Of a stretch of 64,000 nucleotides of DNA, positions 44,408-50,705 are shown piece after piece. Source of the DNA: Thermoplasmata archaeon. Lineage in GTDB: Archaea; Thermoplasmatota; DTKX01; VGTL01. The notes under the pieces were generated by a model. That model did not search any database and was not told where the DNA came from. It worked only from the letters and a program-made list of their open reading frames with translations. Positions within the stretch are counted from its first letter, which is position 1. Every line of letters starts with the position of its first letter. The position numbers were made by a program, and so were the translations under genes. The DNA lies in contig JAWCLH010000014.1 of the NCBI GenBank assembly GCA_038851035.1, forward strand, positions 1 to 64,000, in the 5' to 3' direction.

Positions 44408-44593
44408 ATGGGGAAGAGGCCGGTGATTGACAGGACGCGCTGCATGCACTGCGGGGCCTGCGTAGGCTCCTGCCCGGAGAACGCCGCGACCCTCGAGGAG
44501 GTCTGGGTGGAGTTCGGCGAGGGCTGCACGGGCTGCGGCATCTGCTCGAGGGCCTGCCCCGCCGGAGCGATTTCGATGGAGGGCTCCGGATGA
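44408..44593 (+). CDS. 2[4Fe-4S] ferredoxin
   Basis: 61 residues with two complete CxxCxxCxxxC cluster motifs (CMHCGACVGSCPENA; CTGCGICSRACPAGA), a bacterial-type dicluster ferredoxin. Its stop codon overlaps the start of the geranylgeranyl reductase (ATGA), so it is very probably the dedicated electron donor for that enzyme. Confidence 0.93.
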   Translation: MGKRPVIDRTRCMHCGACVGSCPENAATLEEVWVEFGEGCTGCGICSRACPAGAISMEGSG

Positions 44594-45792
44594 GCGCGGA
44601 GCGGAGCGTGGAAGTGCTCGTCGTCGGTGCAGGGCCCGCGGGCAGCGTCAGCGCGAGGCACGCCGCTCGCGCAGGAGCGAGGACCCTGATAATAGAGAAG
44701 AGGCAGGAGATCGGCTCGCCGGTGCGCTGCGGCGAGGGCATCGCGCGCGCCTGGCTCGAGGAGCTGGGCATTCGCCCCGATAAGAGATGGATATCGCACG
44801 AGGTCAAGGGGGCCAGAATCATATCACCCGCCGGGCACGTCGTGACGCTGACCGAGAAGCTGGCTGGCAACGAGTGCGGCTATGTGATCAAGAGGGACGA
44901 GTTCGACAGGACGCTGGCGGAGGAGGCGGCGGACGCGGGCGCGGAGGTCATGGTCAAGACGAGCGCCGTGGGCGTGATTCGCGAGGGAGGGAGGGTGGCG
45001 GGCGTCAGGGCTAGGCATATGGGCGAACTCATCGACATCCACGCCAAAGTGGTCATCGGAGCCGACGGCTTCGAGTCGCAGCTCGGCAGATGGGCTGGGA
45101 TAGACACGTCGCTGAAACCCTCAGACATAAATGTTTGCTTTGAGTATACCCTGAAGGGCGTCGACATCAACCCCGACTTCAACGACTTCTACATCGGTTC
45201 CTGCGCGCCCGGTGGATACATCTGGGTCTTCGTGAAGGGCCCGGATAGCGCCAACGTGGGCATCGGGGTCCAGCTGAGCAAGATAAGGCCGGGGGAGAGG
45301 GGGGCGGCGAAGCGCTACCTCGACGCCTTCATAGCGAAGCACCCGGAGCTGGCGAAGGGGAGCCCCATCAGGGAGATCGCGGGCGCGGTCTCCTGCTGCC
45401 AGCCGCTCGAGAGCGTCGTGGCGGACGGAATTATGCTCGTCGGCGACGCGGCCCGGCAGATTGACCCCCTGACGGGCGGCGGCGTGGCGAACGCCTGCCG
45501 CGCGGGGAGGGTTGCGGGCGAGGTCGCGGCCGAGGCCGCGCGAACGGGCGACGCGAGCCGTCAGTTCCTCCAGAAGTACGAGAGGGGCTGGAGGAGAATC
45601 TTCGAGGACCAGATGTACAGGAACTGGATGGCGAAGGAGAAGCTCGTCACCCTTTCAGACGAGACATTCGACAAGGCCTGCGAGGTGCTGGCCTCAGCGG
45701 AGCTGGAGAGGGTCAACACAATAGAAATCCTGCGCCTCATCCAGAAGAAGTACCCAGAGCTCGTGAAGGAGTTCGAGGATCTGATCCACTGA
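44590..45792 (+). CDS. Geranylgeranyl reductase family flavoprotein (archaeal lipid saturation)
   Basis: 400 residues. FAD-binding GxGxxG motif VVGAGPAGSVSARHAA at the N-terminus, the GGR hallmark GSPVRCGEGI with the Cys conserved in archaeal enzymes, YVIKRDEFDRTLAEEA, GADGFESQLGRW and GDAARQIDPLTGGGVANA. It reduces the geranylgeranyl chains of archaeol precursors (digeranylgeranylglycerophospholipid reductase). Translational coupling to the ferredoxin indicates ferredoxin-dependent reduction. No other lipid-synthesis gene is adjacent. TrmB-type regulator divergent upstream. Confidence 0.93.
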   Translation: MSAERSVEVLVVGAGPAGSVSARHAARAGARTLIIEKRQEIGSPVRCGEGIARAWLEELGIRPDKRWISHEVKGARIISPAGHVVTLTEKLAGNECGYVIKRDEFDRTLAEEAADAGAEVMVKTSAVGVIREGGRVAGVRARHMGELIDIHAKVVIGADGFESQLGRWAGIDTSLKPSDINVCFEYTLKGVDINPDFNDFYIGSCAPGGYIWVFVKGPDSANVGIGVQLSKIRPGERGAAKRYLDAFIAKHPELAKGSPIREIAGAVSCCQPLESVVADGIMLVGDAARQIDPLTGGGVANACRAGRVAGEVAAEAARTGDASRQFLQKYERGWRRIFEDQMYRNWMAKEKLVTLSDETFDKACEVLASAELERVNTIEILRLIQKKYPELVKEFEDLIH

Positions 45793-45811: not shown

Positions 45812-45945
45812 GGAAGAGGGCGCATGTGCCCGACCTCGTGGGGTGAGTGAGATGACGAGCGTCGGGCACGAGAGGCGAGCCCCGATAGGGGCGAGCCTGC
45901 GGGCGGCGAAGCCGCCCGCGCGCGCAGTTATTTTTGTGCACTTTT
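45812..45945 (+). repeat. Tandem structured repeat, copy 1
   Basis: The unit starts GGAAGAGGGCGCATGTGCCC and is identical in copy 2 over about 110 bases apart from one C/T change, with a period of 149. It can fold as three hairpins: GTGCCCGACCTCGT with ACGAGCGTCGGGCAC (one bulge); GGCGAGCCCC with GGGGCGAGCC; GGGCGG with CCGCCC. It ends in TTTTTGTGCACTTTT. It begins 19 bases after the geranylgeranyl-reductase stop. It may be a small RNA gene or a REP-like element. Confidence 0.75.
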
Positions 45946-45960
45946 AGGAAGTTGGGAGGG

Positions 45961-46098
45961 GGAAGAGGGCGCATGTGCCCGACCTCGTGGGGTGAGTGAG
46001 ATGACGAGCGTCGGGCACGAGAGGCGAGCCCCGATAGGGGCGAGCCTGCGGGCGGCGAAGCTGCCCGCGCGCGAAGCATTCTTTTTGTGCACTTTTTC
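45961..46098 (+). repeat. Tandem structured repeat, copy 2
   Basis: Second copy of the unit at 45812. The C to T change (46051) weakens the third hairpin by one pair (G-C to G-U), i.e. it keeps pairing, as expected for a selected structure but from only one site. The AT-rich end of copy 1 (AGTTATTTTTG, about 45926-45936) sits 25-35 bases before this copy and could act as its TATA box. The unit runs into the hairpin terminator at 46091-46128. Confidence 0.75.
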
Positions 46099-46128
46099 TT
46101 TGGAACAATAGCCTAGATAAGAAAAAGT
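46091..46128. terminator. Bidirectional hairpin terminator between the repeat unit and tRNA-Phe
   Basis: ACTTTTTCTT (46091-46100) and AAGAAAAAGT (46119-46128) are perfect 10-base inverted arms around an 18-base loop. Each arm gives a T5 run for transcripts arriving from its own side: the repeat unit on plus, tRNA-Phe on minus. Confidence 0.6.
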
Positions 46129-46129
46129 G

Positions 46130-46227
46130 TGCCGCAGGCCGGACTTGAACCAGCGACCTCAAGATCTCCGCCCTGAGGCTGTGCGCAGGACTTCAGTCTT
46201 GCGCTCTCCCAGCTGAGCTACTGCGGC
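46130..46227 (-). tRNA. tRNA-Phe (GAA) with an intron
   Basis: On the minus strand the acceptor arms GCCGCAG/CTGCGGC pair perfectly, followed by discriminator A; CCA is not encoded. The D arm (AGCTCAGCTGGGAGAGC) and T arm (GCTGGTTCAAGTCCGGC) are canonical. The anticodon stem CAAGA/TCTTG encloses CTGAAG, giving anticodon GAA, and then about 25 extra bases (TCCTGCGCACAGCCTCAGGG...) before the loop resumes at A38. Removing them leaves a normal 73-base tRNA. This is the usual 37/38 intron position of archaeal tRNAs, cut by the EndA splicing endonuclease. Confidence 0.95.
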
Positions 46228-46386: not shown

Positions 46387-46860
46387 TTAAAAAGAGAATA
46401 TGGAGTCCTCCCACTCCTGATTCATCCACGGCTCCCCTGTGGTGTGGGACCACCGGGCCTTGAAGCACTTTCCACCCGCCACGAACTCGATTGTGATGAT
46501 AATCGTGTAGCTGTCGTACTGGTCGCCCCTGAAGGTCAGGGCGTCGAGTCTATGGGGCGGCGCGAACGCCGGCACCGAACTCACCCTGTACTCCCTCTCA
46601 CCCATCTCTGAGTCTTTGGAGTCCACGACCTCAACTCGGAGAATCACCCTCTCCAGGGCGAGCGTGCCCGCGTTACGGAGCTCGGGGTCAATGTTGATTC
46701 GGTTCAGCACCCCCTCGTTGTAAAAGACCCTCACCTTCAGCTCCGTGCGCGGGATGACTACGAAGTAGAGTAGCGGCGGCAGGACGATGAGGAGGGCGAC
46801 GAGCGCCACCGCCCTCCGCCTCCTCTTCTTCAGCACCGCATCATCGCTCACCGTCATCAT
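46387..46860 (-). CDS. Small single-pass membrane protein, unknown function
   Basis: 157 residues: a basic cytoplasmic start (KKRRRR), one membrane helix (about 17-38, AVALVALLIVLPPLLYFVVI) and an extracellular beta domain (TELKVRVFYNEG, NAGTLALERVILRVEVVD) with an LEA/Ig-like look. Its ATG overlaps the stop of the upstream 1282-residue protein gene (ATGATG/TGA), so the two are co-translated and the products probably work together. No family recognised. Confidence 0.8.
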   Translation of the reverse strand: MMTVSDDAVLKKRRRRAVALVALLIVLPPLLYFVVIPRTELKVRVFYNEGVLNRINIDPELRNAGTLALERVILRVEVVDSKDSEMGEREYRVSSVPAFAPPHRLDALTFRGDQYDSYTIIITIEFVAGGKCFKARWSHTTGEPWMNQEWEDSIFSF

Positions 46861-49800
46861 CCCCCTAAAAGGCTCCAGAGCAGGGAGGCCACCGGGAGCG
46901 GCACGAGAAGATGGTCATCGCCCCTCGAGGCCCCGAGCGCGAGGCCATTCGAGAATAGCTGCATCCCGAGCGGGAGCGGGCCGCGGCTGCGCGAATCGAG
47001 CAGCACGAGCCTCCCCTCCCCATCCCCCCCTCCGGGACCAAAGCTGGTTCTGACGGAGAGCTGCAGGGTGTCCGCGCTGAGCCCGCAGAGGCTGAAGGTC
47101 GGGTAGGAGCCGAAGACGAGAGACGAGCCCAGGTCCAGGGACTTCAGAGCCTCCGCGTAGAGGCCCAGCGCCCTTATCCTCAGACCCTCCCGATACGGGA
47201 GGTCCCGGACGCGCAGGTACAGCTCCTCGACACCGTCCGAGCGAATTCTGTAGAACCCGCCCGAGTGCCGCGCGCTCAGGACCCTGCCCGCGTCCTTCAC
47301 CTCGACCTGGTAGGAGCTCCTCTGGCCAGTCGCCCGGCCGTCGAGGTCTATGAAAATGTCCAGGTCCGCCCTGTCGCTCTGAAGCGAGAGCTCCGGTAGA
47401 ATCTGCGTCGGCGGGTCCCGCGCCTCGAAGGATGGCGGGGGGTCCAGGGAGGCGTTGAGCGAGAGGGGGAGCTGGTGCAGAAGGACGGTGCTGGAGCGCC
47501 AGAAGTCCCTGACAAGCCTGGAGTTTTTTATGAAAAGGTGCTCGAGGTTAGAGGTCGCCTTATAATCTATACCGACCCGCTCGCCCATGCATCCCCGGAC
47601 GTCCATCTCCTCCGGCAGCGCCGAGCCGAAGGCTAGGAAGCGCGTGCTCATTGGGGGGAGGCGCGAGAGGGAGACGAGGAACGGCCCGAGCGCGGAAGAG
47701 GCCCTAAGCGCGAGCCCCGCCGCTAGTACCTCACGGCCGTAGGTTGCGTTCTGAGAGACGGTGCCATTAATAGAGAGGTCCAGAGCGGAGGGGAGACCTG
47801 TGAGGTAGGCAAGGATGTCCCTCCCCGCGACATTCTCCATGTCGAGAGCCATCCAGTCGTGGCGCGGGTGGAAGCCTTTTATTGCGATGGAAAAGCCGAG
47901 CTCGTCGCCCTCGCTCCGGCTCGAGAGCGAGGTCTCCCGGCCCAGCCTGAGGAAGAGGCGTGTGCTAAAGCATGTGGTGTTCCTTCCCTGCGGCTGGAGC
48001 TGCCTGGAGGCTATTCCGTGGACCCAAGGGGCCTCGACCAGCCTCCCCCTCTGGATGTCGCCTATCAGGGTGGTGTCGGAAAGGGCGCGGATGATTATGG
48101 TGGAGTTCCGGCCGAGGCCGGAGACCTGCTCCTCAATGAATCCGGAGATTCGTTCCGCCACATTGAGGATGTCCTCGCCGAGCTCGGTTACCGCGAAAAC
48201 CGCGGTGGAGAAGCCCACGATGCTCGTGGCGCCCATCAGGTCCGGTATCTCTAGTCCCCAGCCACCCAGAAGGGTGCCCATGCCGAGCGAGAGCTCCGCA
48301 GGCATCGGGTCAATGACGAGCCTAGCGGCGAAGTCTTCTGTGGTGTTGTCGATGTAGACCCGAAGGGGCTCGTCCGTCCTCAGGCCGAGCTCGACCCTCC
48401 CGTTCTCTCCCGTGGCAAGGCCGAGCCGTGTCAGGCCGGAGAAGGAGGCCCCGAAGGAGGTGCCGCCCCCGCCGGACCTGACCACGATGTGGTTGCCTCT
48501 GAGCGAGTAGAGCTCGCTGTCGGTCGCGAGAATTCCCAGTCTCTCCACGGGGCGCTCGGGGGGCGTCTCGATGACGAGCTCCTCCGGGCTCTGGCGCACA
48601 CTGATGCTCTCGGGCAGGCCCTCGACCGATATGCCCAGAAAGTGCTCCCTGACCCAGCCAGTGTAGACGAGGCGCTCTATGCTCTCGCTCGTCGAGACCC
48701 TCAGGGTCCTGTTCGAGGGCGACTGCTCGAGCACGAAAACGGAGGGCAGGGGCAAGACCTCCAGCGTAGCGTTGGACCTGCGGGGCTCGTCCACGAAGAG
48801 CGCCGTCAGGCCCTGCTTCGTCGAGCTCCTTAGGTTTATGAAGGTTCCGTTCCTGAAGTCGCCGTCGAGGCCTGCGAGGCCCGAGAGGCGGGCGCTGAAG
48901 GAGATGTTCATCACCGAGCCGGCCGACGTGGGGAGGGAGAGGTTGTAGAAGGATAGAAAATTTCCCTCCCTTAGTATATAGGGCCCACTCGCGAGCCAGA
49001 GCTCGAGCCCGCCCAGGCGCTGCTCTTGCGGCATGGAGAGCGAGACCCAGCCATCCCTCTCTGGCATCCTGAGGACGTTCTCAGGAATCGACCTCAGGGT
49101 CCGGGCGATGGTCGCGAACTTGCCTGCGAATCGGACCATGACGCTGTCGATCAGGCGCGCGACGAGACCCATCCCCGGCTCGTTGTTTATGATGAGCGGG
49201 GAGGCGCCCCCGACCTCGAAGGTCCCACGGAACTCGATGAGCGTGGGGACGTCTGTGAGTAGGACGTGCATGTGCTTGTACTCGCTTCTGTCCTTGCTGT
49301 AAAACTCCCATTCATTGTACTCGAAGCGAGCTATCCGTGCCGAGGCCTCGAAGCGCGCGTAGTTCCCCTCCGCAGAAGCGTTGTCCAGCCTGAGGACCAT
49401 GGACTCCGGGGCGCTCTGGATGGAGAGGGTTCCGTAGGTCAGGTTCCCCCTGTCCACCGAGACCTCGGCTTCGACACGGCAGGGCGCGTCCGCGCTCCAG
49501 CGGAGGTGGTTGAAGGGCATGTTAAAAGCGGGGCTATCCAACCAGACCGACATCTTCTCCGGCACAGCGAAGAAGCCGGGGGCGGTGCTGAGGTCGATTC
49601 TGAGCCAGCTCCTCTCGACGAGACTCCGCGAGACCGCCTTGGCGTATCCGAGCATCATCGAGAGGCTGTCGAGGGGACCCGTGGAGATACTGATGTTGTA
49701 GGGTCCAGATATGTCACCGATGAGGGATGCGTTGCCTAGCGTGAAGTTTTGTAGCAGTTCCCCGAGAATCTCGCGCAGGCTCCCGTGGGTGTTGACCTTG

Positions 49801-50705
49801 TCCGCGGTGACCGAGGCTTCGAAACGCTGGGGCAAATCCGTGAAGTTGAGGCTGATTATCCAGATATAGTTGAGGCCCTGATATGTGAAGGACTTCAGGA
49901 ACGAGACCTCTACAGGCAGGGGGGCGGCGGGGCCGGCGAGCCTCTCGATCTCCGCCCTTATGCCCCCGCTGAAGTTGAACTGCCAGTCCGAGAACTCGGG
50001 CGGTATAATGCTGACCAGGTGCGGCCTTTCAAATGTGTAGTTCTCTATAGTGACGGAGAGTCGGGCCCGGAGCTCGCTCCCCGAGGCGTTCCCGGTCGAG
50101 AGGTTCCCATCGGCGTCCACTTCCACCCACCTCTCCCAGTCCACGATGTGGACGCCGCTCTCGTCCACCCTGAAATCCAGCGTGGGCCGGAGGCTCCCCC
50201 TGCTCCAAGTCCTCAGGCCTCCGTGCAGCGTGGAGACCCAGTAATTGAGGGGGCCCTGAAGGAGCCACTCGAGTATCGAGGTGCCGTTGAGGTCGGTGTT
50301 TGATTCCGCATCCGTGAAAATGCCGGGAGGGGTGAAGGAGGGCATTTCCGGCTCGACCAGCTCGTACTCGAGTGAGGGCAAGACCTTCTCCATCTTCAAG
50401 GGCTGGATGGCATCTATCGCCCCATGCGCCTCCCTGAGAAGCGCCGGGGAGTTGTAGAGGGAGCGCATCGTGGCCTGGAGGGCCGTAAGGGCCTCGAGGA
50501 CGCCGTAGGTTGTTGAGGGCATGGGGGGCTCAGGCGGCCCAGCCGCTAGAAGCGGCAAGAGAGGGGTCACGATCACCGAAACCACCGTGGCCAGAATAAT
50601 TAAGCGGAGGCGCGGGAACCCCCCGCGCCGCCTGCCCGGAAAGCTCAAGAATCGACAATCGCCCCTCCCCGTGTACCCTTTCCGCTCCATGCGCCAAAAA
50701 CCCAT
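46857..50705 (-). CDS. Very large exported protein of unknown function with repeated beta modules
   Basis: 1282 residues. A basic N-terminus and hydrophobic segment (about 33-55, LRLIILATVVSVIVTPLLPLLAA) act as signal or anchor; there is also a weakly hydrophobic C-terminal end (LLVPLPVASLLWSLLGG). In between are many beta-rich units with a recurring pattern of a short LP or xLPxxI turn followed by alternating hydrophobic residues (for example DLPQRFEASV, GLPESISVRQS, GLPSALDLSIN, QLPLSLNASL, DLPYREGLRI). Such repeats recall long beta-groove or lamellar lipid-handling proteins, but I see no diagnostic motif and make no family call. About 30 bases separate a TATA-like GTTTAATACG from ATG 50705. 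Overlaps and is co-translated with the 157-residue membrane protein. Confidence 0.82.
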   Translation of the reverse strand: MGFWRMERKGYTGRGDCRFLSFPGRRRGGFPRLRLIILATVVSVIVTPLLPLLAAGPPEPPMPSTTYGVLEALTALQATMRSLYNSPALLREAHGAIDAIQPLKMEKVLPSLEYELVEPEMPSFTPPGIFTDAESNTDLNGTSILEWLLQGPLNYWVSTLHGGLRTWSRGSLRPTLDFRVDESGVHIVDWERWVEVDADGNLSTGNASGSELRARLSVTIENYTFERPHLVSIIPPEFSDWQFNFSGGIRAEIERLAGPAAPLPVEVSFLKSFTYQGLNYIWIISLNFTDLPQRFEASVTADKVNTHGSLREILGELLQNFTLGNASLIGDISGPYNISISTGPLDSLSMMLGYAKAVSRSLVERSWLRIDLSTAPGFFAVPEKMSVWLDSPAFNMPFNHLRWSADAPCRVEAEVSVDRGNLTYGTLSIQSAPESMVLRLDNASAEGNYARFEASARIARFEYNEWEFYSKDRSEYKHMHVLLTDVPTLIEFRGTFEVGGASPLIINNEPGMGLVARLIDSVMVRFAGKFATIARTLRSIPENVLRMPERDGWVSLSMPQEQRLGGLELWLASGPYILREGNFLSFYNLSLPTSAGSVMNISFSARLSGLAGLDGDFRNGTFINLRSSTKQGLTALFVDEPRRSNATLEVLPLPSVFVLEQSPSNRTLRVSTSESIERLVYTGWVREHFLGISVEGLPESISVRQSPEELVIETPPERPVERLGILATDSELYSLRGNHIVVRSGGGGTSFGASFSGLTRLGLATGENGRVELGLRTDEPLRVYIDNTTEDFAARLVIDPMPAELSLGMGTLLGGWGLEIPDLMGATSIVGFSTAVFAVTELGEDILNVAERISGFIEEQVSGLGRNSTIIIRALSDTTLIGDIQRGRLVEAPWVHGIASRQLQPQGRNTTCFSTRLFLRLGRETSLSSRSEGDELGFSIAIKGFHPRHDWMALDMENVAGRDILAYLTGLPSALDLSINGTVSQNATYGREVLAAGLALRASSALGPFLVSLSRLPPMSTRFLAFGSALPEEMDVRGCMGERVGIDYKATSNLEHLFIKNSRLVRDFWRSSTVLLHQLPLSLNASLDPPPSFEARDPPTQILPELSLQSDRADLDIFIDLDGRATGQRSSYQVEVKDAGRVLSARHSGGFYRIRSDGVEELYLRVRDLPYREGLRIRALGLYAEALKSLDLGSSLVFGSYPTFSLCGLSADTLQLSVRTSFGPGGGDGEGRLVLLDSRSRGPLPLGMQLFSNGLALGASRGDDHLLVPLPVASLLWSLLGG

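Follow-up and report, generated by a model that had tools for sequence, protein, structure and literature searches.

What are the two nearly identical, hairpin-rich units that stand in tandem behind a tRNA-Phe gene in this archaeon: duplicated small RNA genes, mobile repeats, or something else? The window analyzed here is the whole 64,000-nucleotide stretch of contig JAWCLH010000014.1, from a genome (G000) apparently assembled from a metagenome. The array is anchored on an intron-containing tRNA-Phe gene (46130–46227, minus strand; GAA anticodon, by reading), and both units lie directly 3′ of it. On the far side of the array is a geranylgeranyl reductase gene (44590–45792, plus strand).

Positions 45812–45924 match 45961–46073 at every base but one, a direct repeat of 113 nt with a period of 149; the original prediction had given about 110 identical bases at the same period. 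It had also called three strong hairpins per unit, and these were located (hairpins II, III and IV). The distal unit (45812–45945) contains these three and a remnant of a fourth hairpin, I; the proximal unit (45961–46129), which adjoins the tRNA 3′ end, contains all four, and both are given on the tRNA's strand (minus), as are the hairpins. Hairpin II spans 46048–46068 in the proximal unit (distal counterpart 45899–45919) and hairpin III 46022–46047 (45873–45898), with a tandem GA/GA mismatch on the plus strand. Hairpin IV, of 44 nt, spans 45975–46018 (45826–45869) and has the form GTGCCCGAC...GTCGGGCAC. The units fold at −77.7 and −81.0 kcal/mol (z-scores of −5.8 and −5.9), and for each, none of 200 dinucleotide shuffles did as well.

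Hairpin I (46090–46129, minus strand), absent from the earlier list, is T-rich and bridges the proximal unit and the last base of tRNA-Phe at 46130. Its arms, 46090–46100 and 46119–46129, pair around an 18-nt loop (46101–46118) that is conserved in the copy at tRNA-Phe of a sister genus and in the copy at the RNase P RNA gene of G000. Of the T-rich GTGCAC elements that had been assigned to the unit ends, the proximal one includes an arm of hairpin I. Since the distal unit keeps only a remnant of hairpin I, the tandem duplication seems to have started inside that hairpin. The one base that differs between the copies, near 46062, is C in the distal and T in the proximal unit. This change had been predicted to keep pairing, which is true of the plus strand alone, where G-C becomes G-U; on the tRNA's strand it makes an A-C mismatch. 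A coding reading was dropped, as in the original prediction: the overlapping ORFs matched no Pfam family, and a period of 149 is not divisible by three. Neither window unit has a copy of the tRNA end, and no direct repeats of the tRNA 3′ end surround them.

The units have relatives. Besides the two window copies, a DNA search of G000 returned divergent ones near tRNA-Val and immediately behind tRNA-Gly and the RNase P RNA gene. Reading the 3′ flanks of all 42 G000 tRNA genes added further units of this kind, type A, behind tRNA-Glu and two tRNA-Ala genes, some of them decayed (amino-acid identities of tRNAs other than tRNA-Phe are anticodons read by eye), and also exposed a second arrangement, type B. 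An all-against-all comparison backs this grouping. About seven type A relatives lie elsewhere in G000, with few exceptions at the 3′ end of a stable RNA gene; the genome has some eight loci of type A and four of type B, and type B is commoner in the sister genus. At L003 (1300–1581, G000 contig C23) we noted a complete type A pair of hairpins III and IV that does not directly follow any recognized RNA gene; the imperfect, T-rich inverted repeat upstream of it could be the sign of a small RNA gene missing from the annotation.

The sister genus, of the same family, is represented by GenBank VGTL01 (G001; "Euryarchaeota archaeon isolate M_DeepCast_200m_m1_298"), a metagenome assembly that probably originates from Lake Tanganyika, the sample name occurring in PMC8245535. 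G001 is syntenic at tRNA-Phe, with the geranylgeranyl reductase gene, the element, tRNA-Phe and two conserved minus-strand genes. Two proteins encoded in the window at 46387–50705 (minus strand), of 1282 and 157 aa, have no Pfam match and are conserved and syntenic in G001. A single unit stands at the G001 tRNA-Phe, and its four hairpins are those of the window in unchanged order. Its arms differ from those of the window yet still pair, so that compensatory change retains the fold at this site, and the hairpin I loop is largely kept. The G001 RNase P RNA gene has no unit behind it, unlike that of G000, and at several orthologous tRNAs one genome has type A where the other has type B. The synteny at tRNA-Phe, the RNase P absence and the swaps of type together indicate both retention and turnover. 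In G002, from another family of the same class, we found none of these arrangements in the 37 tRNA flanks read, of 42.

Type B units were surveyed over the tRNA 3′ flanks of G000 and G001 (L018–L059 and L085–L127). They lie behind many G001 tRNAs and some G000 tRNAs, often in tandem. The order begins with the tRNA 3′ strand, a trailer of ∼15–20 nt, an inverted copy of the tRNA 3′ strand and a hairpin, hpA; a linker, often GAATC, then leads to a second hairpin, hpB, and a direct copy of the tRNA 3′ strand. Loops are conserved (hpA like GATACGGTAGAGA, hpB like GAGCGTATGCGAG) and the paired stems are variable. Inverted copies of the tRNA 3′ end of at least 12 nt were found in 14 of 41 G001 flanks, 7 of 42 G000 flanks and 1 of 37 G002 flanks, compared with 0.3% of shuffles; for direct copies of at least 14 nt the counts were 14 of 41, 5 of 42 and 0 of 37, compared with 0.1% of shuffles. 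One array mixes the two types in the order tRNA-Ala, B, tRNA end, B, tRNA end, A, partial A.

In G001, two units of type B lie away from tRNA genes. At contig C113:6500–6660 (L185/L209) a lone tRNA-Ala 3′ end, without tRNA body, precedes one unit of type A and one of type B. At C105:4726–4803 (L187/L210) a type B unit is located at the stop codon of a protein gene read as porB-like, and here an inverted copy of that gene's own 3′ end replaces the tRNA end.

Stems of both types change while staying paired. In the hpB stem 163 of 165 cells were paired, and 10 of 11 pairs had changed on both sides, with no one-sided change seen; covariation was 0.553 against 0.186 when shuffled (0/500 as high). 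Covariation was also seen in hairpins III/IV, with modest counts from a type A alignment of five sequences. Of the stem pairs ∼98% were Watson-Crick; G-U was almost absent, and neither strand was clearly preferred. Type A arms were set manually and, read on the tRNA's strand, comprised 398 Watson-Crick, 2 G-U and 5 A-C pairs; a broader set had 5 G-U and 4 A-C, detection penalizing both alike. Control tRNA acceptor stems had 9 G-U and 0 A-C. In an RNA under ordinary selection, G-U steps are expected on one strand. Compared with type B trailers in reverse complement, the type A loop scores 9.0 against 7.83 for shuffles (sd 0.16, 0/500), a resemblance that spacer inversion would give; in forward orientation the value was 8.08 (26/500). 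This was a simple test with mononucleotide shuffles on related sequences.

The family is confined to one lineage as far as we searched. Of 60 relatives searched with covariance models of type B (R1) and of type A hairpins III and IV (R2), only G000 and G001 gave strong matches, and no strong copy was found outside their family, represented by these two genomes. Weak R1 matches in other genomes of the phylum (best E-value 9e-5) were treated as chance. The hairpin IV pattern occurred in 2 of 243 phylum genomes (control 0), and a scan of ∼85,000 species returned 14 contigs, of which the sole archaeal one was VGTL01; we put the remainder, from scattered bacteria, at about chance level by our own estimate. 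Rfam searches of the window and seven array loci, at gathering and permissive thresholds, gave no RtT match (RF00391), and only tRNAs and RNase P RNA were convincing. Viral origin was rejected, the hpB core being absent from viral sequences and the two hpA-loop matches there both lacking the stem.

The search for a mover gave little. The REP-associated Y1 transposase (PF01797) is absent from G000, with three pieces in G001, and G000 has no reverse transcriptase, so both were set aside as movers. The single tyrosine recombinase of G000 has a counterpart of similar score in G002, which is without units. With neither Y1 nor reverse transcriptase in G000 and a recombinase of similar score in a unit-free genome, a dedicated mobilizer is not evident. 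In G001 a tyrosine recombinase match (C27:4787–5448) starts ∼150 bp after a tRNA-Arg-like gene; this locus is probably an ordinary integrated element.

The original prediction had named two candidates, duplicated small RNA genes and REP-like mobile elements, and proposed that many dispersed copies would favor a REP element and one or two syntenic copies an ncRNA. Both patterns occur, and both further copies and retained pairing were found in relatives. With G-U nearly absent, neither strand clearly preferred and tRNA-end copies present in the sister arrays, the balance leans toward a REP/RtT-like repeat over a plain small RNA gene; the "mobile" part of that proposal is not proven. Within one archaeal family, the cassettes anchor on stable RNA genes, tRNA genes included, at the 3′ end. 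They share a four-hairpin anatomy, synteny across genera at tRNA-Phe, variable paired stems with conserved loops, a companion type B and growth in tandem. Their shape is kept while sequence changes, probably by copying of DNA; a simple new small RNA is the less likely reading.

We infer that template switching and tandem duplication at the DNA level fit better than an ordinary small RNA gene. The turnover of stems with almost no G-U and with perfect arms points to template switching; loops are conserved, for which copying alone would be insufficient, so selection acts too. Template switching has been reported to generate perfect hairpins and repair them (PMC8794818), and spacer inversion by it is reported as well (PMC8604942). 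Under our proposal, replication template switching would copy one arm in reverse complement, yielding a paired stem, and would also homogenize arms and invert the loop; tandem duplication would multiply the cassettes, which may then be kept as a terminator or 3′ boundary where short RNA genes with strong transcription end. REP/BIME elements behind bacterial genes can mark such a boundary or terminator. This role is the likeliest function we can suggest for the cassettes, yet it is the most speculative step, and function is unproven. Against our reading, template-switch events were not traced directly, and a few copies lie away from known RNA genes (L003 in G000; C7 and C105 in G001). The joint reading, a lineage-specific non-coding pair of type A cassettes within RNA-gene-anchored arrays, shaped by DNA-level copying and with a boundary or terminator role, we judge reasonably probable. 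A bolder version seems to us unlikely: a new archaeal element that would write inverted and direct copies of the host gene 3′ end around fixed-loop hairpins, re-tailoring itself to each tRNA or protein gene, and would serve either as a 3′ boundary that repairs itself or as a decoy for integrases that target tRNA genes.

Could the type A unit instead be a structured ncRNA, transcribed on the plus strand towards the tRNA and ending in T-runs, or a processed 3′ trailer of the tRNA transcript like the rtT RNA of E. coli? The strong fold of each unit, its retention at a syntenic site across genera, the covariation in hairpins III/IV and the T-runs at unit ends would all suit such a gene. The plus strand has some claim, since the five A-C pairs of type A on the tRNA's strand are G-U there, against two the other way, and the tandem GA mismatches also lie on it. 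But G-U pairs are very few overall with no clear strand bias over both types, and units shift between RNA genes and get lost. By eye we saw no consistent TATA-like promoter upstream, and a match in Rfam is absent. A small RNA gene is possible, though on balance rather unlikely. Compensatory change by itself does not prove a functional RNA.

It is more doubtful still that these are non-autonomous mobile elements using RNA-gene 3′ ends as att-like targets, moved by a tyrosine recombinase or other enzyme in trans, with the direct tRNA-end copies as att duplications. Such copies around type B units, the tandem arrays, the G001 unit with a tRNA-Ala end away from any tRNA and the differing presence of units between genera would follow naturally. 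The inverted copies would not, fitted as they are to each locus, including a protein gene's own end; known integrases, to our knowledge, make no such locus-tailored inverted copies. The enzyme survey of G000 also speaks against movement in trans (its lone recombinase is matched in unit-free G002, and Y1 transposase and reverse transcriptase are missing), as does the want of a tRNA-end copy in the window units. Misassembly of the tandem copy or arrays deserves mention since the genomes look like metagenome assemblies and, in G001, one unit is located at a contig end. It is very improbable: the window copies differ by a base and in their ends, an independent genome carries a unit at the syntenic place, and stems are distinct at many loci.

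If our reading of DNA-level copying holds, these arrays are a natural case, with many tRNA loci per genome, of stems turning over while staying paired, and the part of template switching in making and keeping hairpins becomes directly testable. They also reveal an RNA-gene 3′ flank of a kind for which standard annotation has no name. Our literature search found the arrangement unreported in archaea, with most subscription papers out of reach, and as far as it showed, this hairpin-rich repeat family appears not to have been described before.

Among known systems, the rtT RNA/tyrT repeats of E. coli (Rfam RtT, RF00391) likewise form structured units that recur and are linked to tRNA genes. Like type B, the tyrT repeats include part of the tRNA 3′ end; the window units carry none. 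rtT has been described as released from tRNA operon transcripts (PMC4986893) and as similar to BIMEs (PMC2965389), whereas our units, known from DNA alone, have no RtT match, another sequence, an archaeal host, and both inverted and direct tRNA-end copies. REP/BIME elements are also short extragenic palindromic units right behind genes, sometimes in tandem, and REPs have been reported in archaea too (PMC12306157). The units here differ in being few, in being tied to RNA-gene 3′ ends and in conserving loops rather than stem sequences, and G000 has no RAYT/Y1 transposase. Elements integrated at tRNA genes with att repeats resemble type B in its flanking direct copies of the tRNA 3′ end; our units are gene-free, only ∼120–150 bp long and, in the window, without a tRNA-end copy. 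Template-switch hairpins (PMC8794818, PMC8604942) share the perfect arms, multi-base compensatory change and spacer inversion, but there the process is a general one of mutation, and here it would act repeatedly on fixed conserved loops at one kind of site. The missing Rfam match, tRNA-end copy in the window units and REP transposase keep the family apart from REP/BIME and from rtT. It works most like these two, and is a variant of structured extragenic repeats that is a member of neither; it is best read as a lineage-specific, REP/RtT-like family of cassettes anchored on the 3′ ends of RNA genes.
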